A stretch of 64,000 nt of DNA from assembly GCF_032854445.1 (NCBI RefSeq), contig NC_088307.1, positions 2,792,001-2,856,000 on the forward strand, written 5' to 3'. Both the position numbers and the translations under genes were made by a program. Below, one piece after another: positions 1,641 through 57,800 of the stretch. The notes beneath the pieces were generated by a model. It had not been told where the DNA came from, did not search any database, and worked only from the letters and a program-made list of their open reading frames with translations. Origin of the DNA: Liolophura sinensis. Lineage: Eukaryota > Mollusca > Polyplacophora > Chitonida > Chitonidae. Position 1 is the stretch's first letter, and each line of letters opens with the position of its first letter.

Positions 1641-4390
1641 GTCAGTTACTTTCCTATATTTAATTGAACATTGTTTCTGCATGTGAGTCCAGTACGATGT
1701 ACTGAGAAACTCTCTCTCATGCATTCACGAGTGAGTTTATTCACTCGCTAGTCAGATGGTATGCAAGTGCAGCACAATGACTGGGGAGGCTCTCATCTTT
1801 GTGATCATTTTGAGTTTAGCTCTGGCTGGTTTCATCTCCGGCCGAAGTGTGGGAAGGTAAGCCAGCAACCTGCAGATGGCTTTGAGTTTCCCAGAACTCT
1901 GCCCAGTTTCGTTTCCACAATATTCTGGCTGCCACCATATAAAGTGAAATATTCTTGAGTAGGCTTAAAACACCTTTGAAATAAGTTGATAAATTAGTCA
2001 AGTCAGGTGATGTGCAGAGCAATGTTGAAGAAAAGGACAACTGAAGAATTTAGTTTCTCTTATGAATGTATTGTTTACTGTTCATAAGAAATGGTCACAT
2101 GACAAGTTAAAAAAGCCTATGTTTAGCCTTTCATATGGCATCAATTTTGGATTTCTGAAAGATATCTTGAGCCCTCCTTGTCCTGTTTTGAGCATCGGGG
2201 CCTCAACCTATTTGATTGACAGTGAGCATTAGAGAGCACTGGCCCGTCAGTTATGCTAACCCACCGACACATTGGTTGCTCTCATAACTTTTCAGGTGTT
2301 TATCTCAAGCATGATTCTTTAATTTGGGTTTGTAAACATCATCCATATTATATATATGAGAATATTTGCAGTTTACCTTAGTTCTTCTCATTTTTTGGAC
2401 ATCTGGTCTGCTCATTTTAACCAATATACACATACTTGTGGCAGGAATATTAAGTTTCTTTTTTTTACACATGATTAGTCCATCTAATGAACAACTTTTT
2501 TTCCATTTAAACATAAACCATTACGATCTCTGTTTTACCTGTTGTGTTTACAGAGGTTATCTATTATACCACACCTATAGCCAGGTGATCCCTGTTTTAC
2601 CTGTTGTGTTTACAGAGTGTATCTATTATACCACACCTATAGCCAGGTGATTTGTGGGGCCATCGTGGGAATGATCCTGGGCGGGGCATGGTTCTGTGTT
2701 GTTCAGCTCGTCTTAACACCATTTTTCCCAGTTATCGCATCACAGTAAGTGGCAGGAACTTTCTGACTTGACATATGTTGTTCAAATCTAGTCTAGATCA
2801 GCGTTAACTAAGGGTTTGTCTCACGTGTCAGCTGTGTGGAGCAATGTGTAGAGCTACATGTACGTGTAACTGTGTAGAAGTAAGGCTCTGACTACATATT
2901 TAAAGTCTGTAGGGATTTCAAATGTCAGACTGATATTAGCAGTGGACAGCGCTCGTAAGACACCTGACAGAGCCTTACATGAAGGTGACAGTATCCGCTC
3001 GCATTGCATGTGAAAATCTGTGTTACATGAAGGTAACGCTTGTGGTACAGCCACCCCTAAAACTCACCAAGCAGCATTAAACACCAATCAAAGTTTAATA
3101 ATAAAGAAATAAATTTGATTTAATTTGAAGTTTTCTGAACTGACTATAAACTGTGTTACAGTTACAAAATTACAATCCGGTTGACCCTGTTGTAACCCTA
3201 TTTACAGTCTCCTCAAAATTAATGTAAAGTATGAATACTTGCCTTAATATCTGGACTGTCAGTCATTTTTGACTTGGAATCATTATGATGAAGAACTCTT
3301 TTGAAAACGAAGGTGAGAAAAGGTTATTTACTGGTATATTTTCCTTGTGTACAGACCACCATTATGTACCAGTTAAATTAGTCATACAGTCGTGAATGAT
3401 AACTCCAAAAAGTTATAATAACAATAACTCCTTTGTGCAAGGGGATCCAGAGCTTTCAGTGACAAGTTCATTTTCTACTTTGATGTTTGTGATTTTATTG
3501 TCATTTCAATTTGTTTTCCAGTCCAATTGGAGAATTTTTAATGCTGAGAGATTCCACATTAATTCCTCACGTAATGTGGTTTGAGTACACATCAACACGG
3601 AGTGAATCAAGGTAAGACAGTCTCCATTACCAGGACTCACGCCTGCTCTGATTGGTTTAGTTGCTGCCTTAAAGCAGGATAAATGTTAAATCGCCTGTGC
3701 TTTTCTCCCAAAATGTTCCCCACACCCGGGAACTTGACTGCTGTTAAATCTGTGTACCGGTGGAAGGGCCTTCATGGCAGAGTGTTTAGAGTGCTAGTGC
3801 AGCAGAATAACCCAGGAGCCTCTCACTATTGCGGTCGCTGTGAATTCAAGTCCAACTCCTGCTGACTCCCTCAGCTTCCATACAAGGGAAGGTCTGGCAT
3901 CAACCTGTTCTGCTTGGTTTCCTCCCAACATGATGCTGGTTGCCATCATATAAGCGAAACATTATTGAGTATGGTGTAAAACCTCAGATAAATAAATGAC
4001 ATTTTCTTAACCTTGGAGTAAATCCCAGTAAAATAATCTGAAAATAAATAATCTGAATAAAACATTTATAAATTGATTGATTAAAGTCTCTACTTCCTCT
4101 TTTTTAGGTGATAATTTATTTAACACGAATGAGTTTGAACCCAAATTATGCAGATTTGTTTCTTCAGGTGTGTTAATAACCACCACAGTATGTGTAAAAC
4201 ACCTGATTTTCTTTCTTTAACATCATTTAGAGGTATCATAAAGACAAATATAAGTATGAATGAAGAAATTCTTCATGCCTAAATGGTTATGATGGGGTAT
4301 TCTCTGTATTTATTTACACTTGTGTTTTGTTTTTTACTTTTCTCATTTAGAAGCCGACAAAGAAAAGTTACATCTAGAAAATCCCAATGA
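1548..4390 (+). CDS. DOLPP1: Dolichyldiphosphatase, C-terminal four exons (partial)
   Basis: Join 1548-1640, 2616-2744, 3522-3611, 4351-4390; about 116 residues, stop TGA 4388-4390. DOLPP1 removes phosphate from dolichyl diphosphate at the ER membrane, recycling the lipid carrier of N-glycosylation (family knowledge, PAP2 superfamily). Seen here: a membrane-like segment [15 protein letters not shown]; the PAP2 C3 motif SRVYLLYH with the catalytic His; a second hydrophobic segment; then [16 protein letters not shown], which matches the DOLPP1 C-terminal signature, and a basic tail. All junctions are GT-AG and phases close (1548 opens with the last base of a split codon). The N-terminal exons with the C1 and C2 motifs must lie upstream of the window. 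The C3 exon and the last exon are each partly duplicated in tandem. CRAT lies downstream in convergent orientation. Confidence 0.93.
1755..1995 (+). mobile_element. Diverged tRNA-derived SINE (family 1)
   Basis: Degenerate copy: CTCTCATCTTTGTGATCATT, TTCATCTCCGGCCG, a CCAGCAACCTGCAGATGG core and tail GTGAAATATTCTTGAGTAGG. It lies in the intron after the first DOLPP1 exon. Confidence 0.7.
2531..2650 (+). repeat. 62-bp tandem duplication of a DOLPP1 3' splice site
   Basis: Two copies, 2531-2592 and 2593-2650, each holding the polypyrimidine tract, TTTACAG and the first 40 or so bases of the C3-motif exon. The offset is 62 bp, not a multiple of 3. Using the first acceptor (exon from 2554) runs into TGA within the second copy, so the second acceptor is the productive one. 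Confidence 0.9.
2616..2744 (+). CDS. DOLPP1: DOLPP1 exon with PAP2 C3 motif
   Basis: Acceptor TTTACAG ending 2615, donor GTAAGT at 2745. Completing the split Arg gives [16 protein letters not shown], then a hydrophobic segment and [10 protein letters not shown]. The start at 2616 is chosen over the duplicate acceptor at 2553, because only 2616 keeps the frame open and gives the family residue Val after Arg. Confidence 0.93.
3522..3611 (+). CDS. DOLPP1: DOLPP1 penultimate exon
   Basis: Acceptor TTTTCCAG, donor GTAAGA at 3612. It encodes [20 protein letters not shown] and onward to TRSES, a strongly conserved DOLPP1 block. Phases are 2 in and 2 out. Confidence 0.93.
3761..3997 (+). mobile_element. 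SINE family 1 copy in DOLPP1 intron
   Basis: tRNA-like head with CCAGGAGCCTCTCACTATTG and B-box region GAATTCAAGTCC, a GGAAGGTCTGGCATCAACCTG core, tail CATTATTGAGTATGGTGTAA and AATAAATGA. Moderately diverged. Confidence 0.75.
4351..4390 (+). CDS. DOLPP1: DOLPP1 last coding exon
   Basis: Acceptor CTCATTTAG. It encodes the basic tail (R)[12 protein letters not shown] and stop TGA 4388-4390. The exon and the DNA after it are duplicated about 148 bp downstream. Confidence 0.88.
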
Positions 4391-4643
4391 CTACGACTGA
4401 GGAGGTAGCAAAGATGCCCGCTATATTAACCAATGGAGAGGAACAATACATAAACTCTTGGTGCCATGACTGAAAACAGCTCATTTGATTGGCTTCATGA
4501 GCCAAGAAAGAAAAGTCACATCCAGGAAGTCACAATGGCCAAAGTTAATGAGGTAGCAAAAATGCCCGCTATATTAACCAATGGAGATGAATGTCACACA
4601 AACTCTAGTGCCATGACTGAAAACAGCTCATTTGATTGGCTTC
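4353..4643 (+). repeat. 148-bp tandem duplication of DOLPP1 last exon and following sequence
   Basis: Copy 1 covers the terminal exon and about 100 bp after the stop. Copy 2 starts near 4501 and repeats AAAGTCACATCCAGGAAGTC and the segment through CAGCTCATTTGATTGGCTT. Copy 2 still encodes RKVTSRKSQ but reads past the old stop (TGG in place of TGA) to TAG a few codons on. Confidence 0.85.
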
Positions 4644-5935
4644 CAGTTTTGCAGACTTTATTCATAGACCAATCATTTGGAAGGGATGCAAATATTTTCT
4701 ACTTGTGAATACAGTGCTTCATATTTACTTAAATAACATAAACATCAACTTTGTTCAACTGTTTTGTCTGGTGAAATTTCCAAATATATATATGGTTGTG
4801 TTTTTAAAAAAAAAATTAAGGTTTGTCTCCTAAAAATGGTTATTTATAAGGTCTCAGAATTCTTCAATTTTCATGTTGTAGTATGATAACTGTAAAAATG
4901 GACAGCAAATAGCTTATCTTTTCTGACTGTAAAATTTGCAAAACTTTGACCATCGTTTGCCTTAACTGAGTACTTAAAATTCCCTGAAAATTTGGTGATT
5001 TTTGTCCGTGTACCATTGCTTGTGTCTCCATGGGTCACACATACAGTATTGCTACTGCTGATATTTAGGTGGATTTCTGACAGTTTTTAGTTCATGTTTT
5101 CTTCCTCACTGGTAATGAATGTTGTTTTAATTTTTATACATATTTTTTGTTTTATGGATTTAAATACTGTTAAGAGTAAGACTTTGAGTTTCAATTTTGT
5201 TTGATATTTTTAAATACTGTATTTCAACTAAAGTTCAGACATTTTTTGAGCAACACGTTTTGCTTGATTCATCCATGTTACAGGGCCACTTTATACATAC
5301 CAGACTTTAGGTGAAACACGGTGCGTATAAAAATCAGTGGAACAAAAGAAAACATGATCCGTGTTTTTTGTCACCACTCATGTCAGTGTCCACCTGGTAA
5401 CTAAGGGAAGAATCATGATATGGAGGCCCGCCAAGACATGGTTGGGAAATTGCTGATTTGGCCTTAAGCCATAATCAATCATTCATTCATGATATGGAGG
5501 AACAATGGGTAGTGTTACGAAGTGAAACCTTTTCTACACACCTGGAAAAAAAATGATTCAGTCACTTACAAATTTGCCAGTTGCCTTGCACACTTTTGAA
5601 AAAAATCTTTAAAATTTTTTCTGAAAATATTTGTTGTTGACTTTCCCACTTGACTTATAAACTGACAGGTAATTGTGATACAGGTAAATCATGATTCATG
5701 ATAATTAAAGCTGGGATTTTTCCACGTTAGTGACATGGAATAGTAGTAAGCTATGGTCCTATGATAGCAGGACAGGCATGAGATTTGTCCTCTTTTCGGA
5801 GGAATTCCTCTTTATTGATACAAAAAAACAATCAGAAAAATGTTCAGAATTTAATTCAGAATTGCTGAAAATGATAAAATGATTAAGAGTGTGATGTTTA
5901 GTTTCCTCTTTTTCATCCCACTGTCTGTCTCATCA
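4644..5935. other. DOLPP1 3' UTR or flank, no gene seen
   Basis: AT-rich DNA with no supported coding region. A fragment of the dispersed GGCCTTAAGCCATAATCA element lies at about 5458-5492. The end of the DOLPP1 transcript was not located. Confidence 0.5.
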
Positions 5936-7472
5936 CTGATATGAGAACTGTCGGTGCAGTTAATGGTCCTGTGATAGCAGAATGATATCAGGAATGTCGG
6001 CACAGTTAATGGTCCTGTGATAGCAGGATGATATCAGGCCCTGTGATAGCAGGATGATATTAGGACAGTGCAGTTAATGGTCCTATGATATCAGGACTGT
6101 TAGCGCAGTTAATGGGCCCTTTGATAGCAGGATAATATCAGGACTGTTAGTGCAGTTAATGGTTCTATGATAGCAGGATGATACTAGGACTGTTAGTGCA
6201 GTTAATGGTCCTATGATAGCAGGATGATACTAGGACTGTTAGTGCAGTTAATGGTCCTATGATAGCAGGATGATATCAGGAATGTTAGTGCAGTTAATGG
6301 TCCTATGATAGCAGGATGATATCAGGAATGTTAGTGCAGTTAATGGTTCTATGATAGCAGGATGATATTAGGACTGTTAGTGCAGTTAATGGTCCTATGA
6401 TAGCAGGATGATATCAGGACTGTTAGTGCAGTTAATGGTCCTATGATAGCAGGATGATATTAGGACTTTTAGTGCAGTTAATTGTCCTATGATAGCAGGG
6501 TGATATCAGGATTTAGCACAGTTAATGGCCCTGTGATAGCAGGATGATATCAAGAATGTTAGTGCAGTTAATGACCCTTTGATAGCAGGATGATATCAGG
6601 ACTGTTAGTGCAGTTAATGGTCCTATGATAGCAGGGTGATATTAGGACTTTTAGTGCAGTTAATGGTCCTATGATAGCAGGATGATATCAGAAATGTTAG
6701 TGCAGTTAATGGCCCTTTGATAGCAAGATGATATTAAGACTGTTAGTGCAGTTAATGGTCCTATGATATCAGGATTTAGCACAGTTAATGGTCCTATGAT
6801 AGCAGGACGATATCAGGAATGTTAGTGCAGTTAATGGTCCTATGATAGCAAGATGATATTAAGACTGTTAGTGCAGTTAATGGTCCTATGATAGCAGGAT
6901 GATATTAAGACTGTTAGTGCAGTTAATGGTCCTATGATAGCAGGATGATATTAGGACTGTTAGTGCAGTTAATGGTCCTATGATAGCAGGATGATATTAG
7001 GACTTTTAGTGCAGTTAATGGTCCTATGATAGCAAGAAGATATCAGGACTGTTAGTGCAGTTAATGGTCCTATGATATCAGGATTTAGCACAGTTAATGG
7101 TCCTATGATAGCAGGATGATATCAGGAATGTTAGTGCAGTTAATGGTCCTATGATAGCAAGATGATATTAGGACTGTTAGTGCAGTTAATGGTCCTATGA
7201 TAGCAGGATGATATTAAGACTGTTAGTGCAGTTAATGGTCCTATGATAGCAGGATGATATTAGGACTGTTAGTGCAGTTAATTGTCCTATGATAGCAGGA
7301 TGATATTAGGGCTTTTAGTGCAGTTAATTGTCCTATGATAGCAGGATGATATTAGGGCTTTTAGTGCAGTTAATGGTCCTATGATAGCAAGATGATATTA
7401 GGACTGTTAGTGCAGTTAATGGTCCTATGATAGCAGGATGATATCAGGAATGTATCAGGAGTGCAGTTAAAT
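5936..7472. repeat. Minisatellite, 46-bp unit, about 33 copies
   Basis: Unit: GGTCCTATGATAGCAGGATG, ATATCAGGAATGTTAGTGCA, GTTAAT. Variants (ATATCA/ATATTA, GGAATG/GGACTG, GGTCC/GGCCC) alternate in blocks, which suggests segmental amplification. It begins about 1.5 kb after the DOLPP1 stop and may lie in its 3' UTR. Confidence 0.92.
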
Positions 7473-9765: not shown

Positions 9766-9968
9766 CTGGTACTCTAATTCTTCAACCTTTTCGCATGTTT
9801 GCAAGGTATTTATTCAAGTATATTCTGTGTAGATTGATAAAATCATACTTTTTATGAAGCACAATCCAACTAAAGCAGTTTTGTCTCCAAAATCAAATTA
9901 TAAATGTGCATAAATTGCACTGAGAATTGCTCTTTCATATGCGAAAATGTTGAGAAATTAGGGTACGC
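9766..9968. mobile_element. Short terminal-inverted-repeat element (MITE-like)
   Basis: The left end, GGTACTCTAATTCTTCAACC then TTTTCGCAT, is mirrored at the right end by ATGCGAAAATGTTGAGAAAT then TAGGGTAC. It is about 200 bp with no ORF. Similar ends recur near 28190-28415, 32887-33062, 33401-33612 and 39535-39738. Confidence 0.6.
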
Positions 9969-10035
9969 ACAAAACTATCATCAGCATACATGTGACAGAT
10001 TGTTGAACATGACACTGAACAACAATAAAATAAAT

Positions 10036-15847: not shown

Positions 15848-18800
15848 CTGGAAAACAATGACCACACAACACACTCACTCATCTGTAGCACAGTAATTTT
15901 CAGGTAACATGCTAATGTCGAGAGACGGGGATATGTTGAAAGGTGTTTTTCTATACTGTGATTAGGCTATAATAAAAGAGATAATTTGCTATCAGTTCTG
16001 TAAGTCCAAGAAAAGAACAAACCCTACACGTCATCGTCAGCCACAGGTGCATACATAAAGGTAGGACAATAAAGCTTTTGCTCATACAGATCATGCATGT
16101 ATATAAAACCCTGTTATACATTCTGTTCACAACACAGCCATATTGTAATCTTAATGCTAGGTGTGTATTACAACACATTTCTTTGCATGTATTTGATTGG
16201 TTTAACCACAGTACTCAAGAATTTTATACTTGTATTATAGTTGTCCAGTTGATAGGTGGACAAACATAAGGAATGTACGTATGGGGTTTAACGTCCCACT
16301 TAACAATTTTTCAGTCATATAACAATGCAGAGTCATTAGGTGTGTGTACAAACACTGTGTTTTCTTGTGAAAGGGCGAGTCTATGCCGCCAAAATGCTGG
16401 CAACACTGAAGTATCATGCCAAAGATACCAGACATGAAATACAACCCAGTCACATCATATTGACACCGGGCCAACCAGTCCTGTTTCCTTGCACTCACCT
16501 CAAGGCAGCAGCAACTACCATATTTATAGTCTATGGCATGACCCAACCCGGGTTTGATCTTGGGTCTGCCGACTTTGACATTTTGTCTGTCAGTGTATCG
16601 ATACCTCATATCGTAATGGTTAAAATATTTTAAACTGCTGTGTGAAGGAATTCTTCAAATAGCCATGACAAAAAAAATGAGTATGTCAAAAAAAGGGGAG
16701 GGCTCTGTAAATTTTAAAGTGACGCTTTCCGTATACTAATGGAGATAAAAAGTGCACGAAGTTAAAATCCCTATGCTATGTTTCCCAGGCATGCGATTGT
16801 GTTTGTGATTACTTGTCCTATAGTCCTTCTGAGAGCGAGATTTACGCAAAAACGCACAGGCCATGGAAACACGGTAGCGAAAGAGTCGAGCAATCAAACA
16901 AACGTGATCATGTGTCCATGGAAACACAGCTTAAGCCAGCCACTTTACCGCTCTTTAGCCACTGATCACAAGTATGTTTTCTAGAGAAACAGAGGACTTG
17001 AAATTCATGGCTGTCACAACACAGCTCAAGACAGCAACATTACCACCCTAACCACACCATAGTTTCATCAATAAACAGAGTGAGTGAGTGAGCCCTTAGG
17101 GTTTAACGTCATCCTTAACAATTTTTCAGTCACATGATGACGAAGAAGTCCTTAGGGTGCATGAACATGTACTGTGCTTCCTTTTTACAGGGCGGCCAAT
17201 AAACAGAGGATTAGCTCACCTGGCTGGGGGACAGTTTAAACTCCATGGCTGTTGCAAAACACACCTTAGGGCAGCCACATTACAACTTTCTCCACAAACA
17301 GAGGATTTGCTCACCTGGCTGGTGGACAGTTTAATCTCCATGGCTGTTGCAAAACACAGCTTAGAGCAGCCACATTACCACTTTCTCCACAAACAGAGGA
17401 TTAGCTCACCTGGCTGGGGGACAGTTTAAACCCCATGGCTGTTGCAAAACACAGATTAGGGCAGCCACATTACAACTTAAACCACAAACAGAGGATTAGC
17501 TCACCTGGCTGATGGACAGTTTAAACTCCATGGCTGTTGCAAACACAGCTTAGAGCAGCCACATTACCACTTTAACCACAAACAGAGGACTAGCTCAACT
17601 GGCTGGTGGACAGTTTAAACTCCATGGCTGTTGCAAAACACAGCTTAGAGCAGCCACATTACCACTTTAACCACAAACAGAGGACTAGCTCAACTGGCTG
17701 GTGGACAGTTTAAACTCCATGGCTGTTGCAAAACACAGCTTAGAGCAGCCACATTACCACTTTCTCCACAAACAGAGGATTAGCTCACCTGGCTGGTGGA
17801 CAGTTTAAACTCCATGGCTGTTGCAAAACACACCTTAGGGCAGCCACATTACAACTTTAACCACCGAACAATAGTTTTTCTCCACAAACTGAGGATTAGC
17901 TCACCTGGCTGGTGGACAGTTTAATCTCCATGGCTGTTGCAAAACACAGCTTAGGGCAGCCACATTACCACTTTAACCACAAACAGAGGACTAGCTCAAC
18001 TGGCTGGTGGACAGTTTAAACTCCATGGCTGTTGCAAAACACAGCTTAGAGCAGCCACATTACCACTTTCTCCACAAACAGAGGATTAGCTCACCTGGCT
18101 GGTGGACAGTTTAAACTCCATGGCTGTTGCAAAACACACCTTAGGGCAGCCACATTACAACTTTAACCACCAAACAATAGTTTTTCTCCACAAACTGAGG
18201 ATTAGCTCACCTGGCTGGTGGACAGTTTAAACTCCATGGCTGTTGCAAAACACACCTTAGGGCAGCCACATTACCACTTTAACCACAAACAGAGGACTAG
18301 CTCACCTGGCTGGTGGACAGTTTAAACTCCATGGCTGTTGCAAAACACACCTTAGGGCAGCCACATTACCACTCTCTCCACAAACAGAGGATTAGCTCAC
18401 CTGGCTGGTGGACAGTTTAAACTCCATGGCTGTTGCAAAACACAGCTTAGGGCAGCCACATTACAACTTTAACCACCAAACAATAGTTTTTCTCCACAAA
18501 CAGAGGATTAGCTCACCTGGCTGGTGGACAGTTTAATCTCCATGGCTGTTGCAAAACACAGCTTAGAGCAGCCACATTACCACTTTCTCCACAAACAGAG
18601 GACTAGCTCACCTGGTTGGGGGGGACAGTTTAAACTCCATGGCTGTTGCAAAACACAGCTTAGGGCAGCCACATTACCACTTTCTCCACAAACAGAGGAC
18701 TAGCTCACCTGGCTAGGGGACAGTTTAAACTCCATGGCTGTTGCAAAACACAGCCTAGGGCAGCCACATTACCACTTTAACCACCAAACAACAGTTTTTC

Positions 18801-21800
18801 TCCACAAACAGAGGATTAGCTCACCTGGTTAGGGGACAGTTTAAACTCCATGGTTGTTGCAAAACACACCTTAGGGCAGCCACATTACAACTTTAACCAC
18901 CAAACAATAGTTTTTCTCCACAAACAGAGGATTAGCTCCCCTGGCTGGTGGACAGTTTAATCTCCATGGCTGTTGCAAAACACAGCTCAGGGCAGCCACA
19001 TTACCACTTTCTCCACAAACAGAGGATTAGCTCCCCTGGCTGGTGGACAGTTTAATCTCCATGGCTGTTGCAAAACACAGCTTAGGGCAGCCACATTACC
19101 ACTTTCTCCACAAACAGAGGATTAGCTCCCCTGGCTGGTGGACAGTTTAATCTCCATAGCTGTTGCAAAACACAGCTTAGGGCAGCCACATTACCACTTT
19201 CTCCACAAACAGAGGACTAGCTCACCTGGCTGATGGACAGTTTAAACTCCATGGCTGTTGCAAAACACACCTTAGGGCAGCCACATTACCACTTTAACCA
19301 CCAAACAATAGTTTTTCTCCACAAATAGAGGACTAGCTCACCTGGCTAGGGGACAGTTTAAACTCCATGGTTGTTGCAAAACACAGCTTAGGGCAGCCAC
19401 ATTACAACTTTAACCACCAAACAATAGTTTTTCTCCACAAACAGAGGATTAGCTCCCCTGGCTGGTGGACAGTTTAATCTCCATGGCTGTTGCAAAACAC
19501 ACCTTAGGGCAGCCACATTACCACTTTCTCCACAAACAGAGGATTAGCTCCCCTGGCTGGTGGACAGTTTAATCTCCATGGCTGTTGCAAAACACAGATT
19601 AGGGCAGCCACATTACAACTTTAACCACCAAACAATAGTTTTTCTCCACAAATAGAGGACTAGCTCACCTGGCTGGTTGACAGTTTAAACTCCATGGCTG
19701 TTGCAAAACACACCTTAGGGCAGCCACATTACCACTTTCTCCACAAACAGAGGATTAGCTCCCCTGGCTGGTGGACAGTTTAAACTCCATGGCTGTTGCA
19801 AAACACAGCTTAGGGCAGCCACATTACCACTTTCTCCACAAACAGAGGATTAGCTCACCTGGCTGGTGGACAGTTTAAACTCCATGGCTGTTGCAAAACA
19901 CACCTTAGGGCAGCCACATTACCACTTTCTCCACAAACAGAGGGTTAGCTCACCTGGCTGGTGGACAGTTTAATCTCCATGGCTGTTGCAAAACACAGCT
20001 TAGGGCAGCCACATTACCACTTTCTCCACAAACAGAGGATTAGCTCACCTGGCTGGTGGACAGTTTAATCTCCATGGCTGTTGCAAAACACACCTTAGGG
20101 CAGCCACATTACCACTCTCTCCACAAACAGTGAGGATTAGCTCACCCGGCTGGGGGACAGTTTAAACTCCATGGCTGTTGTAAAACACAGCTTAGGGCAG
20201 CCACATTACCACTTTAACCACCAAACAATAGTTTTTCTCCACAAACAGAGGACTAGATCACCTGGCTATGGGACAGTTTATTCTCCATGGCTGTTGTAAA
20301 ACACAACTTAGGGCAGCCACATTACCACTTTAACCACCAAACAATAGTTTTTCTCCACAAACAGAGGATTAGCTCACCTGGCTGGTGGACAGTTTAAACT
20401 CCATGGCTGTTGCAAAACACAGATTAGGGCAGCCACATTACCACTTTAACCACCAAACAATAGTTTTTCTCCACAAACAGAGGATTAGCTCCCCTGGCTG
20501 GTGGACAGTTTAATCTCCATGGCTGTTGCAAAACACAGCTTAGGGCAGCCACATTACCACTTTCTCCACAAACAGAGGACTAGCTCACCTAGCTGGTGGA
20601 CAGTTTAAACTCCATGGCTGTTGCAAAACACAGCTTAGGGCAGCCACATTACCACTTTCTCCACAAACAGAGGACTAGCTCACCTAGCTGGTGGACAGTT
20701 TAAACTCCATGGCTGTTGCAAAACACAGCTTAGGGCAGCCACATTACAACTTTAACCACCAAACAATAGTTTTTCTCCACAAACAGAGGATTAGCTCCCC
20801 TGGCTGGTGGACAGTTTAAACTCCATGGCTGTTGCAAAACACAGCTTAGGGCAGCCACATTACAACTTTCTCCACAAACAGAGGACTAGCTCCCCTGGCT
20901 GGTGGACAGTTTAAACTCCATGGCTGTTGCAAAACACAGCTTAGGGCAGCCACATTATCACTTTCTCCACAAACAGAGGATTAACTCCCCTAGCTGGTGG
21001 ACAGTTTAATCTCCATGGCTGATGCAAAACACAGCTTAGGGCAGCCACATTACCACTTTCTCCACAAACAGAGGATTAGCTCCCCTAGCAGGTGGACAGT
21101 TTAAACTCCATGGCTGATGCAAAACACAGCTTAGGGCAGCCACATTACCACTTTCTCCACAAACAGAGGATTAGCTCACCTGGCTGGTGGACAGTTTAAA
21201 CTTCATAGCCGTGGCGTAGGCTCCGTCCATGTGAAGGTCAGGCACGTTCTGACCACTCTCCAATGCGGCCAGCTTCAAACCTAACAGGTGACGGTCAATT
21301 GCCTGACCACTTATAGCCTGCAATAAACAGCAACTGGTCAGCTTTCACAACATGCTGTGGTTTACAGCTTAACTCAAAGACAAAGCCAAAAGACTTGAGG
21401 CTTTCATTAAATTGAAACATTATGTTTCAACAAGTTTCAAATAAAAAATACATAACCAGATTCAAGTAAAAAGTACATAGACAGATTTAAGTAAAAAATA
21501 CATAACCAGATTCAGGTATAATATACATAACCAGATTCAAGTAAAAAATACATTTCTTATTCATTTATTTGACTTGTTTTAGCAGTAATCAAGAATATTT
21601 CACTTATACGATAGCAATCAGGATTATGGTAGGAGGACACCGGGCAGAGCCCGAGGGAAACCCATCTGTAGGTTGCTGGCAGCCCTTCCCACTGATGACC
21701 AACACATTTCTCATCTAGATGTCTAATATCTTCTGTAAATAATGCTGTACATGTACATATGATAAAATAACACACAGGATTCACCTGCTCATGCTGATAC

Positions 21801-24800
21801 TTGTTGAAAACAGGATGGTATAAATATGAATGAATAAAGAACACAGTTACAGGTAGTTATAATATCCAAATTGTATCTATCAATGGCTGTTAGGCTGTTC
21901 AAAACATTGAAGTAATAATTATCCCAAAAAATGCCAGTGTTGTGTGGGCGTGTACATGAGGGTGTGCACATGGTTGGTGGTGCAGTGCGGCATTGCATTC
22001 TCACTTGTCAGCAGAATTTCCATACGTTTCACTGATTTAATCTAAACCTTGTCTATAGTCTGTTTCCTTCTTGAGATGCCACAGTGTCACTGACAAATTG
22101 TTCATCTTTTTAGAAATACTGGGACCCGTCTTACAAAGCTTTGAATAAAATATGTCAAGTGCATTTAGCAAGGTGATTTATTTCCTCACTATAAGTTGCA
22201 TGGATGTTACACCAAGCGCATTTAGCATGGTGATTTATTTCTTCACGATAAGTTCCATGGATGTTACACCAAGCGCATTTAGCATGGTGATTTATTTCTT
22301 CACTGAAAGTTGCATGGATGTTGCACCAAGCGCATTTAGCATGGTGATTTATTTCCTCACTATAAGTTGCATGGATGTTACACCAAGCGCATTTAGCATG
22401 GTGATTTATTTCTTCACGATAAGTTCCATGGATGTTACACCAAGCGCATTTAGCATGGTGATTTATTTCTTCACTGAAAGTTGCATGGATGTTGCACCAA
22501 GCGCATTTAGCATGGTGATTTATTTCTTCACGATAAGTTGCATGGATGTTACACCAAGCGCATTTAGCAAGGCGATTTATTTCTTCACGATAAGTTGCAT
22601 GGATGTTACACCAAGTGCATTTAGCATGGTGATTTATTTCTTCACGATAAGTTGCATGGATGTTACACCAAGCGCATTTAGCATGGTGATTTATTTCTTC
22701 ACGATAAGTTCCATGGATGTTACACCAAGCGCATTTAGCATGGTGATTTATTTCTTCACTGAAAGTTGCATGGATGTTGCACCAAGTGCATTTAGCATGG
22801 TGATTTATTTCTTCACAATAAGTTGCATGGATGTTACACCAAGCGCATTTAGCAAGGTGATTTATTTCTTCACTATAAGTTGCATGGATGTTGCACCAAG
22901 CGCATTTAGCATGGTGATTTATTTCTTCACGATAAGTTCCATGGATGTTACACCAAGCTCATTTAGCATGGTGATTTATTTCTTCACTGAAAGTTGCATG
23001 GATGTTGCACCAAGTGCATTTAGCATGATGATTTATTTCTTCACGATAAGTTGCATGGATGTTACACCAAGTGCATTTAGCATGGTGATTTATTTCTTCA
23101 CTATAAGTTGCATGGATGTTACACCAAGCGCATTTAGCAAGGCGATTTATTTCTTCACTATAAGTTGCATGGATATTGCACCAAGCGCATTTAGCAAGGT
23201 GATTTATTTCTTCACTATAAGTTGCATGGATATTGCACCAAGCGCATTTAGCATGGTGATTTATTTCTTCACGATAAGTTGCATGGATGTTACACCAAGC
23301 GCATGATGCAAGAAGATGTAATATTTTCGTAATTCAGGCCCCTTGATATTATTAGCTGTGGCACGGCTTGTTTTGTTTTTATTCATACTCAAGTATTAAT
23401 ATTCAAGTCATCAACCCTCTTACATCTGCTGTGTATTGCCTGTGAGCCGTGATAGCTGTCCGAAGCAGCTTCTCAGTGACCTCCCTTGGTTTGCCCTCGG
23501 ACATTGCCCTTGTGAACTCGCAGGCTTCAGGTGTACACGACCGTATGGTCTCTGTGCGCCCTGACTGGAACATGCGTGTTGAGGCGCTCTCGTATGTACT
23601 GCCATGCTCGGAATGAATTCTGAAAAATTACAACAGAAGATTTTATCAGATGTATAAAGATGACAAAGAGGTAAAAAAAAAACACTGTGTGGTAGAAGAG
23701 CTATTTAGTGGCCCTTTCAGATGGATGAATCAATCTAAATCAAGCAAATGTTTCACTTGAAAAATGCTAAACTTCAGGTGAAATACAATATTTCCCATTA
23801 ATGAGAGTGTACCTTGTGCATCCTACAAGTACAATGTAATAAGTATTACTTATTACAAGAATATGTATCATTGCACCAACCTGTAGTAAGCCAGTTGTAT
23901 ACATGTACACCTACACACACCTGTAACAGCCCATGTAACTTCACTTACCTGTAGTAAGCCAGCTGTATACATGTACAGCTCCACATACCTGTGACAGCCC
24001 GTGTCACTTCACTCACCTGTAGTAAGCCAGTTGTATACATGTACAGCTCCACACACCTGTAACAGCCCATGTCACTTCACTCACCTGTAGTAAGCCAGCT
24101 GTATACATGTACACCTACACACACCTGTAACAGCCCATGTCACTTCACTCACCTGTAGTAGGTCAGTTGTATACATGTACACCTACACACACCTGTAACA
24201 GCCCATGTAACTTCACTCACCTGTAGTAAGCCAGCTGTATACACGTACAGCTCCACACACCTGTGACAGCCCATGTAACTTAACTCACCTGTAGTAGGTC
24301 ATTTGTATACATGTACACCTACACACACTTGTAACAGCCCATGTAACCACTCACCTGTAGTAAGCCAGTTGTATAGCCACCTGGATGAAGGCATCTGGAC
24401 TCACTTTGCTGGACTTTGCAAAAGCTTTGCCAAAATGGTTGAAAGTCAAGGCTGTCAAATCAAGGTCGCTAATTTGTCTGCAAGTTGTTAAAACAAATGT
24501 CAAATGCAAAGTAAATGGAGAATGAGCAAAATAAAATTCTTTCTCTTCGATAGCACAATGTTTTCTGCTGCATCAAAGGGCATGAGAATTAACACAATCG
24601 AAGCCAACATTAAAAAAAAATCATTAATAAGATTTTAAAGTTCTGCTTTGTATGTCGCATTTATGGTTTCCAATCCCATCCAATCCCAAGATTTACGGTT
24701 TCCTGCTGCATGCAGTCCCAAGATTTATGGTCTCCAATACCATCCAATCCCAAGATTTACAGTTTCCTGCTGCATGCAATCCCAAGATTTATGGTCTCCA

Positions 24801-27800
24801 ATCACATCCAATCCCAAGATTTACGGTTTTCTGCTGCATGCAGTCCCAAGATTTATGGTCTCCAATACCATCCAATCCCAAGATTTACGGTTTCCTGCTG
24901 CATGCAATCCCAAGATTTATGGTCTCCAATCACATCCAATCCCAAGATTTAGGGTTTCCTGCTACAGGCAATCCCAAGATTTATGGTCTCCAATCACATC
25001 CAATCCCAAGATTTCAGGTTTCCTGCTGCATGCAATCCCAAGATTTATGGTCTCCAATCACATCCAATCCCAAGATTTAAGGTTTCCTGCTACATGCAAT
25101 CCCAAGATTTATGGTCTCCAATCACATCCAATCCCAAGATTTAAGGTTTCTTCCCGCATGCAGTCCCATGATTTATGGTCTCCAGTCCCAAGATTTATAG
25201 TCTCCAGTCTCATCCAGTCCCAAGATTTAACGTTTCCTCCCACATGCAGTCCCAAGATTTATGAAGAGCATAAACACCAAACATATAAATAAATAAATAA
25301 ATAAATATAATCTCACCAAGCCCCAAGTTATTTTCTCCAGTCATGTCCAGCCCCAAGATTATTTTTTCCAGTCACATCCAGCCCAAAGATTATTTTCTCT
25401 AATCATATCCAGTCCCATGATTATTTTCTCCAGTCACATCCAGCCCCAAGATTATTTTTTCCAGTCACATCCAGCCCAAAGATTATTTTCTCTAGTCATA
25501 ACCAGTCCCATGATTACTTTCTCCAGTCACATCCAGCCCCAACATTATTTTCTCCAGTCACAATCAGTCCCAAGATTATTTTCTCCAGTCACATCCAGAA
25601 CCAACATTATTTTCTCCAGTCATATCCAGCCCCAAAATATTTTCTCCAGTCATATCAAGCCCCAAGATTATTTTCTTCAGTCACAATCAGTCCCAAGATT
25701 ATTTTCTCCAGTCACATCCAGCCCCAAGATTACTTTCTCCAGTAACATCCAGCCCCAAGATTACTTTCTCCAGTCACATCCAGCCCCAACATTATTTCCT
25801 CCAGTAATATCCAGCCCCAACATTATTTTCTCCAGTCACATCCAGCCCCAACATTATTTTCTCCAGTCACATCCAGAACCAAAATTATTTTCTCCAGTCA
25901 CATCAAGAACCAAGATTATTTTCTCCAGTCACATCCAGAACCAACATTATTTTATCCAGTAACATCCAGCCCCAAGATTACTTTCTCCAGTCACATCCAG
26001 GACCAAGATTATTTTCTCCAGTCACATCCAAACCCAAGATTATTTTCTCCAGTCATATCCAGCCCCAAGATTATTTTCTCTAGTCATATCCAGTCCCATG
26101 ATTACTTTCTCCTGTCACATCCAGCCCCAAGATTACTTTCTCCAGTCACATCCAGCCCCAAGATTATTTTCTCCAGTCATATCCAGCCCCAAGATTATTT
26201 TCTCCAGTCACATCCAGCCCCAAGATTATTTTCTCCAGTCACATCCAGCCCCAAGATTATTTTCTCCAGTCACATCCAGGACCAAGATTATTTTCTCCAG
26301 TCACATCCAGGACCAAGATTATTTTATCCAGTAACATCCAGCCCCAAGATTACTTTCCCCAGTCACATCCAAACCCAAGATTATTTTCTCCAGTCACATC
26401 CAGGACCAAGATTATTTTATCCAGTAACATCCAGCCCCAAGATTACTTTCTCCAGTCACATCCAGAACCAACATTATTTTATCCAGTCACATCCAGCCCA
26501 AAGATTATTTTCTCCAGTCACATCTAGCCCCAAGATTATTTTCTCCAGTCATATCCAGCCCCAAGATTATTTTCTCCAGTCACATCCAGCCCAAAGATTA
26601 TTTTCTCCAGTCACATCCAGGACCAAGATTATTTTCTCCAGTCACATCCAGGACCAAGATTATTTTCTCCAGTCACATCCAGGACCAAGATTATTTTATC
26701 CAGTAACATCCAGCCCCAAGATTACTTTCTCCAGTCACATCCAGCCCCAAGATTATTTTCTCCAGTCACATCCAGGACCAAGATTATTTTATCCAGTAAC
26801 ATCCAGCCCCAAGATTACTTTCTCCAGTCACATCCAGAACCAACATTATTTTATCCAGTCACATCCAGCCCAAAGATTATTTTCTCCAGTCATATCCAGG
26901 ACCAAGATTATTTTCTCCAGTCACATCCAGGACCAAGATTATTTTATCCACTAACATCCAGCCCCAAGATTACTTTCTCCAGTCACATCCAGCCCCAACA
27001 TTATTTTATCCAGTCATATCCAGCCCAAAGATTATTTTCTCCAGACACATCCAGCCCCAAGATTATTTTCCCCAGTCACATCCAGCCCCAAGATTATTTT
27101 CTCCAGTCACATCCAGCCCCAAGATTATTTTCCCCAGTCACATCCAGCCCCAAGATTATTTTCCCCAGTCACATCCAGCCCCAAGATTATTTTCCCCAGT
27201 CACATCCAGCCCCAAGATTATTTTCTCCAGTCACATCCAGCCCCAAGATTATTTTCCCCAGTCACAAGATTATTTTCCCCAGTCACATCCAGCCCCAAGA
27301 TTATTTTCCCCAGTCACATCCAGCCCCAAGATTATTTTCCCCAGTCACATCCAGCCCCAAGATTATTTTCCCCAGTCATATCCAGACCTTAGATTTATGG
27401 TTTCCGGTCATATCCAGTCCCAAAATTATTATAGGCTAACATCTTGAACTTTACATTAATGTCAACTGCAGAGAGCTGACAAGAAAACAGTTTTAATAGA
27501 AGATGGTCCCATGTCATTATCAGAAATCTATCGCTAGGCCTTAGCCTTCGAGTCATTTGACATCTCATTTTTTACATCAATAACTGAGTTAATGTTTAAC
27601 AGCATGCTGACATCTCACAGCCCAGTACTTACGAGTCTGCGTGCACCTTGGCTGCCTCAATGTCCTCCAGCGTTTGGGTGTCCAGGTTAAACTTGAGACG
27701 TCTGGGTGGGTCTGACTCAACAGGAGAATTCGTTGTCTCTTCAGCCTTGTCACTGTACAGAAGGAAAGCGAGGGCTTAGCTCAAGGCAGCTTGCTGACAG

Positions 27801-35856: not shown

Positions 35857-36098
35857 CTGCAAACATGAGATCGGAGGAGTTTGTAAACATGACACAAGAG
35901 GAATTTTTAAACATGAGCTCGGGGGAGGTTGTATACATGACATGGGAGGAGTCTCTGAACATCAAAGGGGAGGAGTTTATAAACATGAGATGGGAGGAGT
36001 TTGTAAACATGAGATGGGAGGAGTTTGTAAACATGAGATGGAAAAAGCCTGCAATCATGAGAAGGGAGAGGCCTACAATCAAAAGAAGGGAAGAGCCT
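35845..36098 (-). repeat. CRAT exon-1 acceptor-derived array, 24-bp unit, about 11 copies
   Basis: Minus-strand unit ATGTTTACAAACTCCTCCCATCTC without its last base pairs matches the exon junction ATGTTTGCAG|GCTCCTCCCATC. Besides the true junction, three outer copies end in TTGCAG, TTGTAG and TTACAG, possible acceptors. The unit is 8 codons long, so neighbouring frames stay open over the array. Confidence 0.8.
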
Positions 36099-36119
36099 GT
36101 AAGCAAATAAAGCAAGCAA

Positions 36120-48663: not shown

Positions 48664-48666
<3 letters not shown>

Positions 48667-48727: not shown

Positions 48728-48728
<1 letters not shown>

Positions 48729-48823
48729 CCTATCCTTATCTTTCCGTGGAAAAGAATAAAGCGCACTAAAGGGGAATAACTCTATCACCAAACTGACAGA
48801 CGCATGCGCTATCTGCGGGTATA

Positions 48824-48842
48824 ATGGCGTCGAAAGGCGCTG
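48824..48842 (+). CDS. PTPA: PTPA exon 1
   Basis: ATG GCG TCG AAA GGC GCT G, donor GTAAGT at 48843. MASKGA joins exon 2 in phase 1. This is the only in-phase start with a good donor upstream of exon 2, but such a short exon is less certain than the others. Confidence 0.75.
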
Positions 48843-51800: not shown

Positions 51801-54800
51801 ATTTTCAGATCCAGTTTATCGGTGTGGTGTCTTGCTAGAGGAGAACTACAGTTTGTCAGAAGAGAAAAATATAGAAATCTGCCCCTGAAGTCTGCTCAAG
51901 CAAGTCTGTAGTCTGCCATAATAACCAAAGTGATGCAAACTACTTATGCAAACTGTTTTACAAAGATTCCTTATTGCCATCTAGACGGTGGAGAAGTTAC
52001 TGGAACTGTTAGAAATCCTGGATACTTGGATTGATGAGATTCCACCCATTGATCAACCTCAGAGGTTTGGCAATAAGGCCTTCAGAGATTGGTTCAAGCG
52101 GCTGGAAGAGGTGGGTTTTAAGTTTTCATTGGTCAGTGAGGTTTACTTGTCATTTTTTATTTTAGTTCTTTTTTTTTTAGGGGTTTTAATCATGTTTAAA
52201 ATTTTAATGAAAGATATAAACAAATCTAAAGTTGTTGTTGGAAGGGACTGATTTATATTTGAAACATAATTTTGTAAGAATGTATTAAATTTCCAGCATC
52301 AACAAAATAAGAGCCTAGGACTGTCTATACCCAAGAGAAACATTGATTTCTGATTTCTGCATTTGAACTTCATGCTTCATAGCTTGTATTATTTATATCT
52401 TTCATTGTTCATCCTTTCATTGAATGTTGCTTTTGTTTTTATGATGCTAACTTAATTTTCATTTGAATTCTTTCTGTCTGTCATAGCAAGCAGAGGAATT
52501 ATTAAAGAAAGCGATGGATGAGAAATACCACAAAGCCTTACCTGAGGTTATGGCTTACCTGGTGGAGGGGGTTGGGAACTCTACGCGGATAGATTATGGA
52601 ACTGGTGAGAAATACCACAAAGCCTTACCTGAGGTTAGGGTTTACCTGGTGAAAGGGGTGGGGAACTATGCAAATAGATTATGGAACTGGTGAGAAATAC
52701 CACAAAGCCTTACCTGAGGTTATGGCTTACCTGGTGGAGGGGGTTGGGAACTCTACCCAGATAGATTATGGAACTGGTCAGAAATACCACAAAGCCTTAC
52801 CTGAAGTGATGGCTTACCTGGTGGAGGGGGTTGGGAACTATGCGAATAGATTATGGAACTGGTGAGAAATACCACAAAGCCTTACCTGAGGTTATGGTTT
52901 ACCTGGTGGAGGGGTGGGGAACTCTACGTGGATAGATTATGGAACCGGTGAGAAATACCACAAAGCCTTACCTGAGGTTATGGGTTACCTGGTGGAGGGG
53001 GTGGGGAACTCTACGGAGATAGATTAGAAGTAATAGGAAATATCTGACATCTGTGATATGACTGATTGATTTTTTTTTTGTATTTGATGATAAATAATTG
53101 CAGTCATTACTAAGAAACTCAGTAGATGGTTCACTTGTCTAAAGTATTACACAATTAAAATGTTGAAACGTATGGGAGCAGCCAAACTGTGTATGGAAGA
53201 GGTGAAGTCTCATCCTAAAGGGAGACAACTTCATTGGTGTGACAGTGTATCGTATAATGTGGAGATGTTGACATTGTACTAGTGTAATCTGTTCATGTTG
53301 ATTGTGGTATTTCAGGTCATGAGATGTCATTTGCAGCCTTCCTCCTCTGTCTGTATAAGATTGGGGTGCTAACAGAAGAGGATGCCCCTGCTGTAGTATT
53401 GAAGCTCTTCAACAGGTATTTCAGCGTTTTGACGTTAGCGCGCTAGCGCAGCGTAATGACCCAGGAGCCTCTCACCAATGCGGTTGCTGTGAGTTCAGGT
53501 CCAGCTCATTCTGGCTTTCTCTCCGGTTGTAAGCGGGAAGGTCTGCCAGCAACCTGCGGATGGTCGTGGGTTTCCTCCGGGCTGTGCCCGTTTTCCTCCC
53601 ACCATAATGCTGGCCGCCGTTGTATAAGTGAAATATTCTTGAGTACGGCGTAAAACACCAATCAAATAAATAAATAAATATATCAAATTTTGACAAACAT
53701 GTGACAGAAGTTATACAACATAATTTGTGTACGTTTTTGTAATTTTTGTCATAACTTGGGCCTTGAAGAATCTTGAAAACTGTTGTATTTTTATTAATAA
53801 TGTTTCAGTTCAGAGTGTGACTGATGTATTACAAATTTACGATGTTTTAGTTATTTAAGAAGAGGGATGTTTTTTTTTCTGACATTCAAGGTAACCATAA
53901 ATCAACTTCTGTTAAGGAATTCTTATAAGGCTATGAAATACGCCATGTTTGAGCAACCAGGAACATGTCCCGTCACTGGTACCTCATGTATGTATGTATG
54001 CTTGTGGTTAAATAGGATTTGTGTGATGTGAGCGGATGTAAAAGCATCTTCGAGCCGCAGAGAAAATTCGCACCTATTTGGAAAAAAAAAATAATTGTTT
54101 CAATGTGTGTGACGTTGATTACTTTGAACTATGATATCTCAGGTGTACTACATCACAGTTGTGCTACATTACAGTTGTACTACAACAAAGAAACTAAAAG
54201 TTCTAAAAGTTCGAAACTAAAAGCCTTTTAAACTTTTAAAAGTGGGATACTTAATTGATGCATATATTGGCCTAGTGTTGTCTTTTCTTTTAAAGGAAAA
54301 GATGTGTCAAAGTAGGCATAACTAAATAGGCCAGTTGAAACTATACATAAATATACTTCCATTTATTTTCATGAAAAGAGTTAAAGGCACTCAAACATTT
54401 GAATTTGAGGGTGGGCTTCATGGACCATACTATCAGATGTTATGAACTCTCACGTCACAGGAAGTTTATTCAACTCTAATCACGACGCTGAATGTTGGAA
54501 TAACTCATTTACCCATGAGTAAAAGATTACTGAAAAAAATTCCTTCCTTCTGTCCTTCTGATGTTCCCAAAAATTCCTTCCTTCTGGTGAACATCAGGAA
54601 AAAAGGTGATGTGACGTCAGAGTTTCTAGATATCGTCAGTATGGCTCATAGTGTTCAAATATTTGAATGCCTTTCAACACTCTCAAAAAAATCTGAAAAA
54701 ATACATGAAAGTATCTTTACACATAGTTTTCAACTGTGATGAACCCTACTTCATACTTTAGCTTTTTTTGACTTTGACGGTCATTTCCTGTGATAGTTTA

Positions 54801-57800
54801 CCTGTAGGGTTTTCATTGTGATTTCCGTTACAGTCAGTACTCCTTCTTGTCCAACTATTGCATGCATTATTACAACACCTGATGCAGTATAATGATGCTG
54901 ACAAATATGTTGTCCAAATTTTCTCACCACTTTTGTCAATAACCCATAATGGTTTATGTCCACAGGTATTTGCTGCTGGTGCGTAAGTTACAGGTGACAT
55001 ACAGAATGGAGCCTGCAGGGAGTCATGGAGTCTGGAGTTTGGATGATTATCAGTTCATACCCTTCCTCTGGGGAAGTGCTCAGCTTATAGGTAAGTTACA
55101 GGTGACATACAGAATGGAGCCTGCAGGGAGTCACGGAGTCTGGGTGATTATCAGTCCATACCCTTCCTCTGGAGAAGTGCCCAGCTCATAGGTAAGTTAC
55201 AGGTGACATACAGAATGGGGCCTGCAGGGAGTCACGGAGTCTGGGTGATTATCAGTCCATACCCTTTCTCTGGAGAAGTGCTCAGCTCATAGGTAAGTTA
55301 CAGGTGACATAAAAAATGGAGCCTGCAGGGAGTCATGGAGTCTGGAGTTTGGATGATTATCAGTTCATACCCTTCCTCTGGAGAAGTGCTCAGCTCATAG
55401 GTAAGTTAGAGGTGACATACAGAATGGAGCCTGCAGGGAGTCATGGAGCGATGGAGTCTGGATGGTCATCAATCCATACCCTTCCTCTTGAGAAGTGCCC
55501 AGCTCATAGGTAAGTTACAGGTGACGTACAAAATGGAGCCTGAAGGAGTCATGGAGCGATGGAGTCTGGATGATTGCCAGTCCATACCCTTTCTCTGGAG
55601 AAGTGCTCAGCTCATAGGTAAGTTAGAGGTGACATACAGAATGGAGCCTGCTGGGAATCATGGAGTCTGGATGATTATCAGTTCATACCTTCCTCTGCAG
55701 GTGTCCAGCTCATAGGTAAGTTACAGGTGACGTACAAAATGGAGCCTGAAGGGAGTCATGGAGCGATGGAGTCTGGATGGTCATCAATCCATACCCTTCC
55801 TCTGGAGAAGTGCCCAGCTCACAGGTAAGTTACAGGTGACTTACAGGATGGAACCTGCCGGCAGTCATGGAGTGTGGGTGATTATCAGTTCATACCCTTC
55901 CTCTGGGGAAGTGCTCAGCTCACAGGTAAGTTACAGGTGACATACAGAATGGAGCCTGCTGGGAATCATGGAGTCTGGATGATTATCAGTTCATACCCTT
56001 TTTCTGGAGAAGTGCCCAGCTCACAGGTAAGTTACAGGTGACATACAGAATGGAGCCTGAAGGGAGTCATGGAGTCTGGAGTTTGGATGATTATCAGTCC
56101 ATACCCTTCCTCTGGCGAAGTGCTCAGCTCATAGGTAAGTTACAGGTGACATACAGAATGGAGCCTGAAGGGAGTCATGGAGTCTGGATAATTGTCAGTT
56201 TATAACTTTCCTATGGGGAAGTGCTCAGGCCAGGTAAGTTACAGGTAAGATACAGAGTGGAGTCGACATGGAGTCATGGAGCCTGGATGATTGTCAGTTT
56301 ATAACCTTCCTCTTGGGAAGTACTCAGGCCAGGTAAGTTACAGGTGACATACAGAATGGAACCTGCACCTAGTCATGGAGTTAGCTCAGAGATATATATC
56401 TACTTGTAGATTTAGCAAGGTTCTGTCAATTTGCTCATAGTGTTTTGTGTAAATCTGGGGATGGTACTCATATCATCTTCAGAAGGGTGAGCTTTATTTG
56501 TGGGAGTTAGGTCGATGAATAAAGATGACTTAATAAAGCTCTTTGAGGTTTTAAGGTATGAGAAAAATTTAAGTTTTGCATTTTCAGAGAAAAAAAATGA
56601 AAGCTGAAGCTAAAATTTTTTTTAGTAGGATTTCATCCTATCCTCCAATCAAAGTCCAAAATATTTTTGTAAGGTGAATAGAACTCTTAGAATCTGGTAA
56701 AATGAGGCTAATTTTAGGTCAAATACATATTGCACGAGCCTCTCACCAATGAGGTCACTGTGAGTTCAAGTCCAGCTCATACTGGCTTTTCTCCGACTCC
56801 ACACTTTAAGGTCTGAGAGCAACCTGCAGATGGCCGTAGATTTCCTGGGTCCTGTCCGGTTTCTTCCCACCTTAATTGCTGGCTGCCGTTGTATAAGTGG
56901 AATATTCTTGAGTACGGAGTAAAACACCAATTAAATAAGTAAATGTAATATTTGTCATAATTATCTATAAGCATTGTTTCCATGTTGGACAGGTCATCAG
57001 AGAATATTTCCCAAGTCTTTCCTGAATCCAGACATTTACGAGACATTTTCTAAAGATTACATGTTCCTCAGCTGTATAAAGTATATCAGTGAGGTGAGTG
57101 CTATATTTAGCATTGTGGGTTCTGTACTGTTGTGGCCACATTATGGCTGAAATATTGCCCATGTGACGTTAAGCCATTGTGGCCACAGTATGGCTGAAAT
57201 ATTGTCCATGTGGCGTTAAGCCATAATCATTCATTCATTCATTCTGTACTGTTGTGGCCACAGTATGGCTGAAATATTGCACATGTGGCGTTAAGCCATA
57301 ATCATTCATTCTGTACTGTTGTGGCCACAGTATGGCTAAAATATTGTCCATGTGGTGTTAAGCCATAATCATTCATTCTGTACTGTTGTGGCCAAAGTAT
57401 GGCTGAAATATTGTCCCTGTGGCCACAGTGTGGCTGAAATATTGCCCATGTGGCATTAAGCCATTGTGGCCACAGTATGGCTGAAATATTGCCCATGTGG
57501 TGTTAAGCCATAATCATTCATTCTGTACTGTTGTGGCCACAGTATGGCTGAAATATTGGCCATGTGGCATTAAGCCATAATAATTCATTCATTCTGTACT
57601 GTTGTGGCCACAGTATGGCTGAAATATTGCCCATTTAGCATTAAGCCATAATAATTCATTCATTCTGTACTGTTGTGGCCACAGTATGGCTGAAATATTG
57701 GCCTTGTGGCATTAAGCCATAATCATTCATTCATTCTGTACTGTTGTGGCCACAGTATGGCTGAAATATTGGCCATGTGGCATTAAGCCATAATAATTCA

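Follow-up and report, generated by a model that had tools for sequence, protein, structure and literature searches.

How tandem arrays come to lie across the splice junctions of real exons, and do so in neighbouring genes, is the question raised by a 64,000-nucleotide stretch of the genome of the chiton Liolophura sinensis (contig NC_088307.1, or C13, positions 2792001-2856000; referred to here as the window), which carries the genes DOLPP1, CRAT and PTPA. The initial annotation of this stretch had proposed eight arrays that each contain the edge of an exon with its splice site. Seven of these are present with the splice junction included, but at the last exon of DOLPP1 the acceptor was not copied (best 30-mer 17/30). 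The enrichment is genuine and is not peculiar to the window, as junction-spanning arrays are about four- to eightfold more frequent in other genes than under random placement, on the donor and the acceptor sides. These counts establish a bias toward exon edges. The genome (609,464,459 bases in 632 contigs) is represented by a single assembly, which was built from PacBio HiFi reads and first published as Liolophura japonica, according to the available part of its report (PMC11068029), the species name later being corrected to L. sinensis by the authors (PMC12441733). The analysis covered the DNA of this one genome.

Among the 49 splice edges mapped in the window (4 DOLPP1, 13 CRAT and 9 PTPA exons), 7 have local copies of the splice junction in a 30-base self-comparison centred on the edge with a threshold of 23/30 (a stricter threshold of 24/30 leaves 5/49), compared to a Monte Carlo expectation of 1.23 to 1.49 (P 5e-5 to 1.5e-4). 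Rows called by Tandem Repeats Finder (TRF) alone give 6/49; the edge of CRAT exon 2 lies about 20 bp outside its TRF row, and this array was moved by hand from the intron-only to the edge class. Outside the window we examined 33 genes from four protein families, chosen from Pfam coordinates before their repeats were inspected. Sample A comprises 6 carnitine acyltransferase paralogues, 9 CCT genes and 8 MCM genes (23 genes; 198,423 bases, 182 edges) and holds 7 edge arrays, where 0.99 are expected (P 8.0e-5), and sample B, with 10 myosins (93,460 bases, 84 edges), holds 6, where 0.61 are expected (P 4.2e-5). The two samples together have arrays at 13/266 edges (4.9%), spread over 10/33 genes, versus 1.60 expected (P 1.7e-8), and every family has at least one (carnitine acyltransferases 3/72, CCT 3/74, MCM 1/36, myosins 6/84).

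The expected counts take as founder density the intron-only arrays with units of at least 20 bp, and the combined expectation rises to 2.42 when the edge arrays join the founder pool (P 1.7e-6). Random re-placement of every array inside the gene that holds it yielded 2.47 edge arrays on average for the two samples, or 3.08 under a 4-base limit, and no run out of 20,000 came to 13. For all 36 genes, window included, 20 of the 79 arrays span an edge, whereas the Monte Carlo mean was 3.72 (4.54 with looser limits; 0/20,000 runs). The recurrence that the initial annotation had judged to exceed chance in the window is thus found again in 33 other genes, with expectations between 1.6 and 3.1. Both sides of the exon are affected (12/155 donor and 8/160 acceptor edges, window included), as are the larger units: those of at least 45 bp account for 9 edge arrays in the two samples versus 1.73 to 1.96 expected, and of the 31 large-unit arrays in the 36 genes, 14 extend across an edge. 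GC content was considered as a driver and ruled out, since intron-only arrays (39.3%) are scarcely richer than other intron DNA (37.7%); exons have 47.6% and edge arrays 43.7%.

The edges of the samples were derived from Pfam matches, a splice matrix and phase, with matrices built on 23 donors and 26 acceptors. Aldehyde dehydrogenases were first planned as the replicate family; with 13 of 97 candidates scored they gave at least 14 matches, and they were replaced by myosins before the myosin repeats were viewed. The ten myosin loci were those that combined a high density of Pfam matches with a compact span. Further loci were omitted, including C6:9124231, whose matches are as many as those of the sparsest locus taken, C3:10775981 (MYO_C3b), without which sample B has 5 edge arrays at 80 edges. 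The myosin listing gave open-frame lengths, a potential hint at repeats, and the analysis of sample B had one limit beyond those of sample A, a minimum intron length of 40 bases. The sample excludes C5:5566404 and C6:7942446, which are CCT-like matches lying in long frames without interruption, and the Pfam match C1:48453530 lay beyond the analysed piece. The first of these, a Cpn60/TCP1 match at C5:5566404-5568116, sits in a single uninterrupted 622-amino-acid frame, unlike the multi-exon CCT genes, and may be a retrocopy or foreign DNA.

Dropped from the counts were the CAT_C7 acceptor 5612 (a similar 30-mer 2,349 bp away, with no TRF array) and the MYO_C1a exons ending at 5400 and 6487, which are alternative exon duplicates, leaving one case of whole-exon duplication uncounted. 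The CCT_C8 donor 614, a false edge within an intronic array, was removed, the exon limits were reset by hand, and the flanking arrays were then counted as intron-only. Also uncounted are an array at the acceptor of the first CCT_C8 exon (by eye, roughly 8 bp of exon are in common) and the decayed donor repeats of CAT_C1a and CAT_C1b. In MYO_C8 (C8:10564800-10571450) a 140 bp two-copy array covers the end of the last matched exon (minus strand, 6310-6600); it is likely a further edge array, and it went uncounted with its donor absent from the edge list. Two recent tandem CRAT-like genes (C1:18984000-19001800 and C1:19009000-19025100) have a decayed donor-side repeat of about 101 bp at the homologue of CRAT exon 12. 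As this repeat and the 95 bp unit of the window look unrelated by eye, the finding suggests that the homologous edge has been struck twice.

In the window, CRAT exons were placed by Pfam PF00755 and those of all three genes by tblastn with human proteins, and their limits were set by hand from homology, frame and GT/AG. The mapped exons of each gene join into an open reading frame without any decoy copy. Homology mapping found in the window no earlier DOLPP1 exons (which would precede its start), no first exon of PTPA and no CRAT exon upstream of the first mapped one. PTPA exons carry the numbers of the initial annotation, exon 5 being the fourth and exon 7 the sixth mapped. The features are listed in Table 1. 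Protein homology backs six of the seven junctions, while the acceptor of CRAT exon 1 lies upstream of the conserved protein and is placed by splice consensus only.

Table 1. Edge arrays of the window and the exons concerned (positions counted from the first base of the window)
Feature	Position	Strand	Unit	Junction, decoys or basis of mapping
DOLPP1 acceptor array	2525-2651	+	62 bp x 2	real acceptor before 2616, decoy 62 bp upstream
DOLPP1 exon with conserved motif	2616-2744	+		tblastn and reading frame
DOLPP1 last exon	4351-4391	+		not an edge array; two-copy duplication omits the acceptor
CRAT exon 12 donor array	17201-21206	-	95 bp	donor 21180; 39 decoy junctions, intact GT in 25
CRAT exon 12, ending KFKLSTSQ, phase 0	21180-21317	-		Pfam and tblastn
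CRAT exon 10 donor array	23879-24375	-	68 bp x 7.3	donor 24355; 7 decoys found, GT in all
CRAT exon 10, ending QLAYY, phase 2	24355-24477	-		Pfam and tblastn
CRAT exon 2 (IVEKFAKS...)	34882-34962	-		tblastn and frame
CRAT exon 2 acceptor array	~34947-35291	-	38 bp, degenerate	acceptor 34962; AG kept in 3/7 decoys
CRAT first mapped exon	35671-35856	-		acceptor from splice consensus only
CRAT exon 1 acceptor array	35845-36099	-	24 bp	acceptor at 35856; AG kept in 3/8 decoys
PTPA exon 5	52487-52604	+		tblastn and frame
PTPA exon 5 donor array	52519-53026	+	87 bp x 5.8	donor 52604; GT kept in 4/5 decoys
PTPA exon 7, ending FLWGSAQLI	54966-55090	+		tblastn and frame
PTPA exon 7 donor array	54983-56381	+	~101 bp x 13.9	donor 55090; 12 decoys found, GT in all

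Alignment of the real copy with its neighbour in 14 arrays (7 from the window and 7 from sample A) gave an exonic share of 12 to 108 bp per array, and none of these 14 alignments showed the duplication of a whole exon with both splice sites; each takes in a single side of the exon and only a portion of it. In the arrays of DOLPP1, PTPA, CRAT exon 10 and CRAT exon 12, the exonic portion encodes conserved protein, which points to the exon as the source and to the intron copies as derived. The unit at PTPA exon 5 is almost entirely exon sequence, and G/GTGAGA arises where copies join, whereas the unit at PTPA exon 7 is wholly exonic and starts exactly at an exon-internal GTAAGT. Anchoring of units at splice motifs was considered as a general rule and rejected, since such an exact donor-like start occurs only in PTPA exon 7 among the 14 alignments. 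The breakpoints of the two-copy DOLPP1 acceptor array share a 3-bp microhomology, GAT. It is unlikely that the arrays are misassembled, because their copies differ from each other and the assembly rests on HiFi reads.

Other repeats lie near these arrays. The duplication at the end of DOLPP1 (about 4351-4660) is a two-copy repeat of about 150 bp across the last exon and the 3' untranslated region, by eye with the stop codon in the first copy. CRAT has intron-only arrays at 22156-23304 and 24659-27430 with units of 57, 64 and 31 bp, and a 71 bp array at 57130-58374 (unit TGGCTGAAATATTGCC...GTTAAGCCATAATCATTCATTC) lies 36 bp from a PTPA donor. The unit of the latter resembles the tail of a common molluscan dispersed repeat.

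The arrays create the rows of decoy splice sites that had been described for the window. Counting as a decoy every copy with at least 19/30 matches to the real junction, the 20 arrays hold 227 decoy junctions, and 197 of these keep GT or AG (donor 101/117, acceptor 96/110). By a small matrix, 156 decoys equal or exceed the score of the real site in their own array, and 16/20 arrays hold at least one such decoy. With so many intact and equally scoring decoys, site strength does not mark the real site. It would rather be marked by its position as the innermost site, nearest the exon body, as exon definition would pick it. If splicing went to the closest intact decoy, the frame would be shifted in 14 of 19 arrays, interrupted by an in-frame stop in 3 and left open in 2; in one further array no decoy is intact. 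As had been noted, the end copy on the gene side is in every case the true exon, but this is geometry rather than evidence, because only the end copy can remain joined to the rest of the exon. A genome search for rows of GGTAAGT with this single exact pattern found none, a weak test that says little.

It is likely that the arrays are exon-edge minisatellites of the same kind as the mirages of amphioxus, in which the innermost site stays in use and the copies lengthen the intron. A short tandem duplication would first span a splice junction and would be tolerated as long as the innermost site, still joined to the exon body, continued to be used. The copies would then multiply within the intron through slippage or unequal exchange, lengthening it, and exon definition, in which the exon is recognised as a unit, would make splicing ignore the decoys. 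Tandem duplication may be mutationally favoured in or near exon edges. A plausible but still tentative extension is that exon edges are hot spots at which tandem duplications arise by an exon-linked process, be it chromatin, transcription or splicing, with about one splice site in 20 carrying a row of intact decoys.

Several points weigh against this reading. In sample B alone, units of at least 45 bp give 2 edge arrays versus 0.64 expected, which is not significant (P 0.13), and the splice matrices are small, with only 23 donors and 26 acceptors behind them. The 19/30 threshold for decoys misses heavily decayed copies, so the intact share of 197/227 may be overstated, and continued use of the innermost site is argued from conservation of the protein rather than from RNA. 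Repeats occur less often at edges (7/49) than in the introns of the window, where 41% of positions are repetitive, since at an exon an array can do no more than terminate. Intron-only arrays also cluster within 60 bp of mapped exons (9/58 versus 3.6 expected, Poisson P 0.012, with one of the nine depending on the reset limits of CCT_C8), and the junction itself may therefore not be the target. The counts show a bias toward exon edges but, because of this crowding near exons, do not show a dedicated process that duplicates segments around them, as had been suggested for this genome. Finally, anchorage in an exon shields one side of an array against its complete loss by deletion, and at a guess this could account for part of the excess, up to about twofold.

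This shielding is central to survivorship, in which births are uniform and exon-anchored arrays last longer, deletions at the anchored end being lethal, or stay recognisable through their conserved copy. Every edge array does have one constrained end, by geometry, yet the effect should be modest and should not raise the number of near-exon arrays outside exons, which is nevertheless elevated, and we regard this explanation as rather unlikely. It is improbable that chance alone is at work, with uniform duplications in minisatellite-rich introns and those that straddle a junction surviving as neutral. The introns of the window genes are indeed 41% locally repetitive, and the mean unit length of edge arrays, 67, agrees with the 59 expected under length-biased sampling, but the numbers of arrays across edges, both in all 36 genes and in the other genes alone, far exceed those from re-placement.

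It is quite improbable that the decoys are functional and kept by selection, whether they serve as ratchet points when an intron is removed in steps, buffer splicing factors or act in some other way. GT or AG is kept in most copies, and measured against the decoys' own consensus the decoy dinucleotide is conserved to a slightly higher degree than the other positions of the unit (0.933 vs 0.893, 15 arrays), but this difference is not significant (P 0.09), and neither is the one found when further occurrences of that dinucleotide in the unit serve as the reference (P 0.10). At CRAT exon 12 and exon 2 the decoys are less conserved than their surroundings, and at CRAT exon 1 slightly so. An initial P of 0.02 for selection came from comparison with the real copy and was abandoned for the test on the decoys' own consensus.

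The initial annotation had further linked the arrays to intron growth or to intron gain, and our results support the former. In 19 arrays, the share of the array in the distance to the next mapped exon has a median of 46% and ranges from 5 to 85%, which is a low estimate because some sample exons are unmapped. The proposed tie to intron gain is not supported. Intron presence was compared between three array-bearing CRAT introns and the paralogues in the same genome. The introns after exons 10 and 12 recur at an identical residue and in an identical phase in CAT_C1a and CAT_C1b, which are recent duplicates of each other and therefore effectively one comparison; in other paralogues the nearest predicted introns are off in phase or by a few residues, or are unmapped. 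Since their position and phase are shared with CAT_C1a and CAT_C1b, both introns are probably older than their arrays and have since been lengthened. Across 153 introns, the surroundings of donor and acceptor show no average likeness (own mean 13.9, mismatched pairs 13.75).

The third intron, at 34963-35670 between TKQ and IVEKF, bears an array at its acceptor; six paralogues lack this intron, their exon continuing across the site. It is possible that this intron was gained, but similarity of its ends gives no support, as they are not detectably alike (score 16, P 0.26). The PTPA intron at 53416-54965 has the highest donor-acceptor similarity of the 153 (24; 0.008 of the cross pairs score at least that), and about 1.3 of 153 introns are expected to do so by chance. 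The first bases of this intron (GTATTT...) are similar to those with which the next exon begins. The creation of introns by tandem duplication of exon pieces, reportedly the route of the Rogers model of tandem genomic duplication and proposed for amphioxus globins, could draw on the exon-internal GTAAGT of the PTPA exon 7 unit, this PTPA intron and the missing TKQ/IVEKF intron of the paralogues, but with a top score expected by chance, no mean similarity of intron ends and shared positions after exons 10 and 12 it is very improbable.

These findings have consequences for how such loci are studied. In the reports available to us, mirages are described gene by gene in amphioxus, while the chiton provides a frequency that exceeds random placement. 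It can now be tested whether mutation by tandem duplication is more frequent at exon edges than around them, and how splicing picks the right site among many that are nearly identical. Edge arrays offer a simple route to intron growth, and the annotation of genomes rich in them may call false exons or edges. If exon edges are indeed hot spots, the genome would offer thousands of natural experiments on the choice of the innermost among equal sites.

Edge arrays resemble the ordinary intronic minisatellites of this genome in having units of tens of bases that expand in introns, but differ in including exon sequence and in lying at edges more often than random placement predicts. As in intron gain by tandem duplication, the duplicated segment holds splice signals; in contrast, two of the chiton introns tested are probably old and have grown, and no intron is demonstrated to be new. 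The available part of a report on Cryptococcus describes repeat expansion in connection with intron gain (PMC2395259). In human genes within segmental duplications, minisatellites also lie within genes, some at exon-intron boundaries, where variable repeats may, according to that report, switch on cryptic splice sites and give rise to novel introns (PMC2812944). Those repeats belong to recent primate paralogues, with about half of them inside coding sequence, and the portion of that report available to us contains neither rows of decoys in old introns nor a test of exon edges.

Judged by titles, and with subscription journals outside the scope, we found in the literature no edge arrays in molluscs or chitons and no frequency test. 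The available part of PMC3862624 mentions only short simple repeats, and that of the chiton genome paper (PMC11545220) makes no mention of exon edges. The closest counterpart is the mirages of amphioxus, tandem repeats across exon-intron boundaries in the Adh3, globin, PGBD5 and troponin C genes (PMC3087553, PMC3902484). As far as the available parts of these reports go, the two systems agree in that the unit spans a real junction (20 chiton arrays), that 5' and 3' boundaries are both affected (12 donor and 8 acceptor arrays here), that AG or GT is kept in many but not all copies, and that units range from tens to about 160 bp. For amphioxus, the reports also include length polymorphism, with copy number unstable between alleles, as well as somatic instability and reverse transcription PCR (PMC3087553, PMC3902484), and ordinary splicing goes on there without disturbance (PMC3087553); the chiton arrays are known here from one assembly. 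The chiton belongs to another phylum, and its data add a frequency of 13/266 edges and a test against random placement. The kind of array is thus already known from amphioxus mirages and human boundary repeats, and what is new is the phylum, the frequency and the measured excess.

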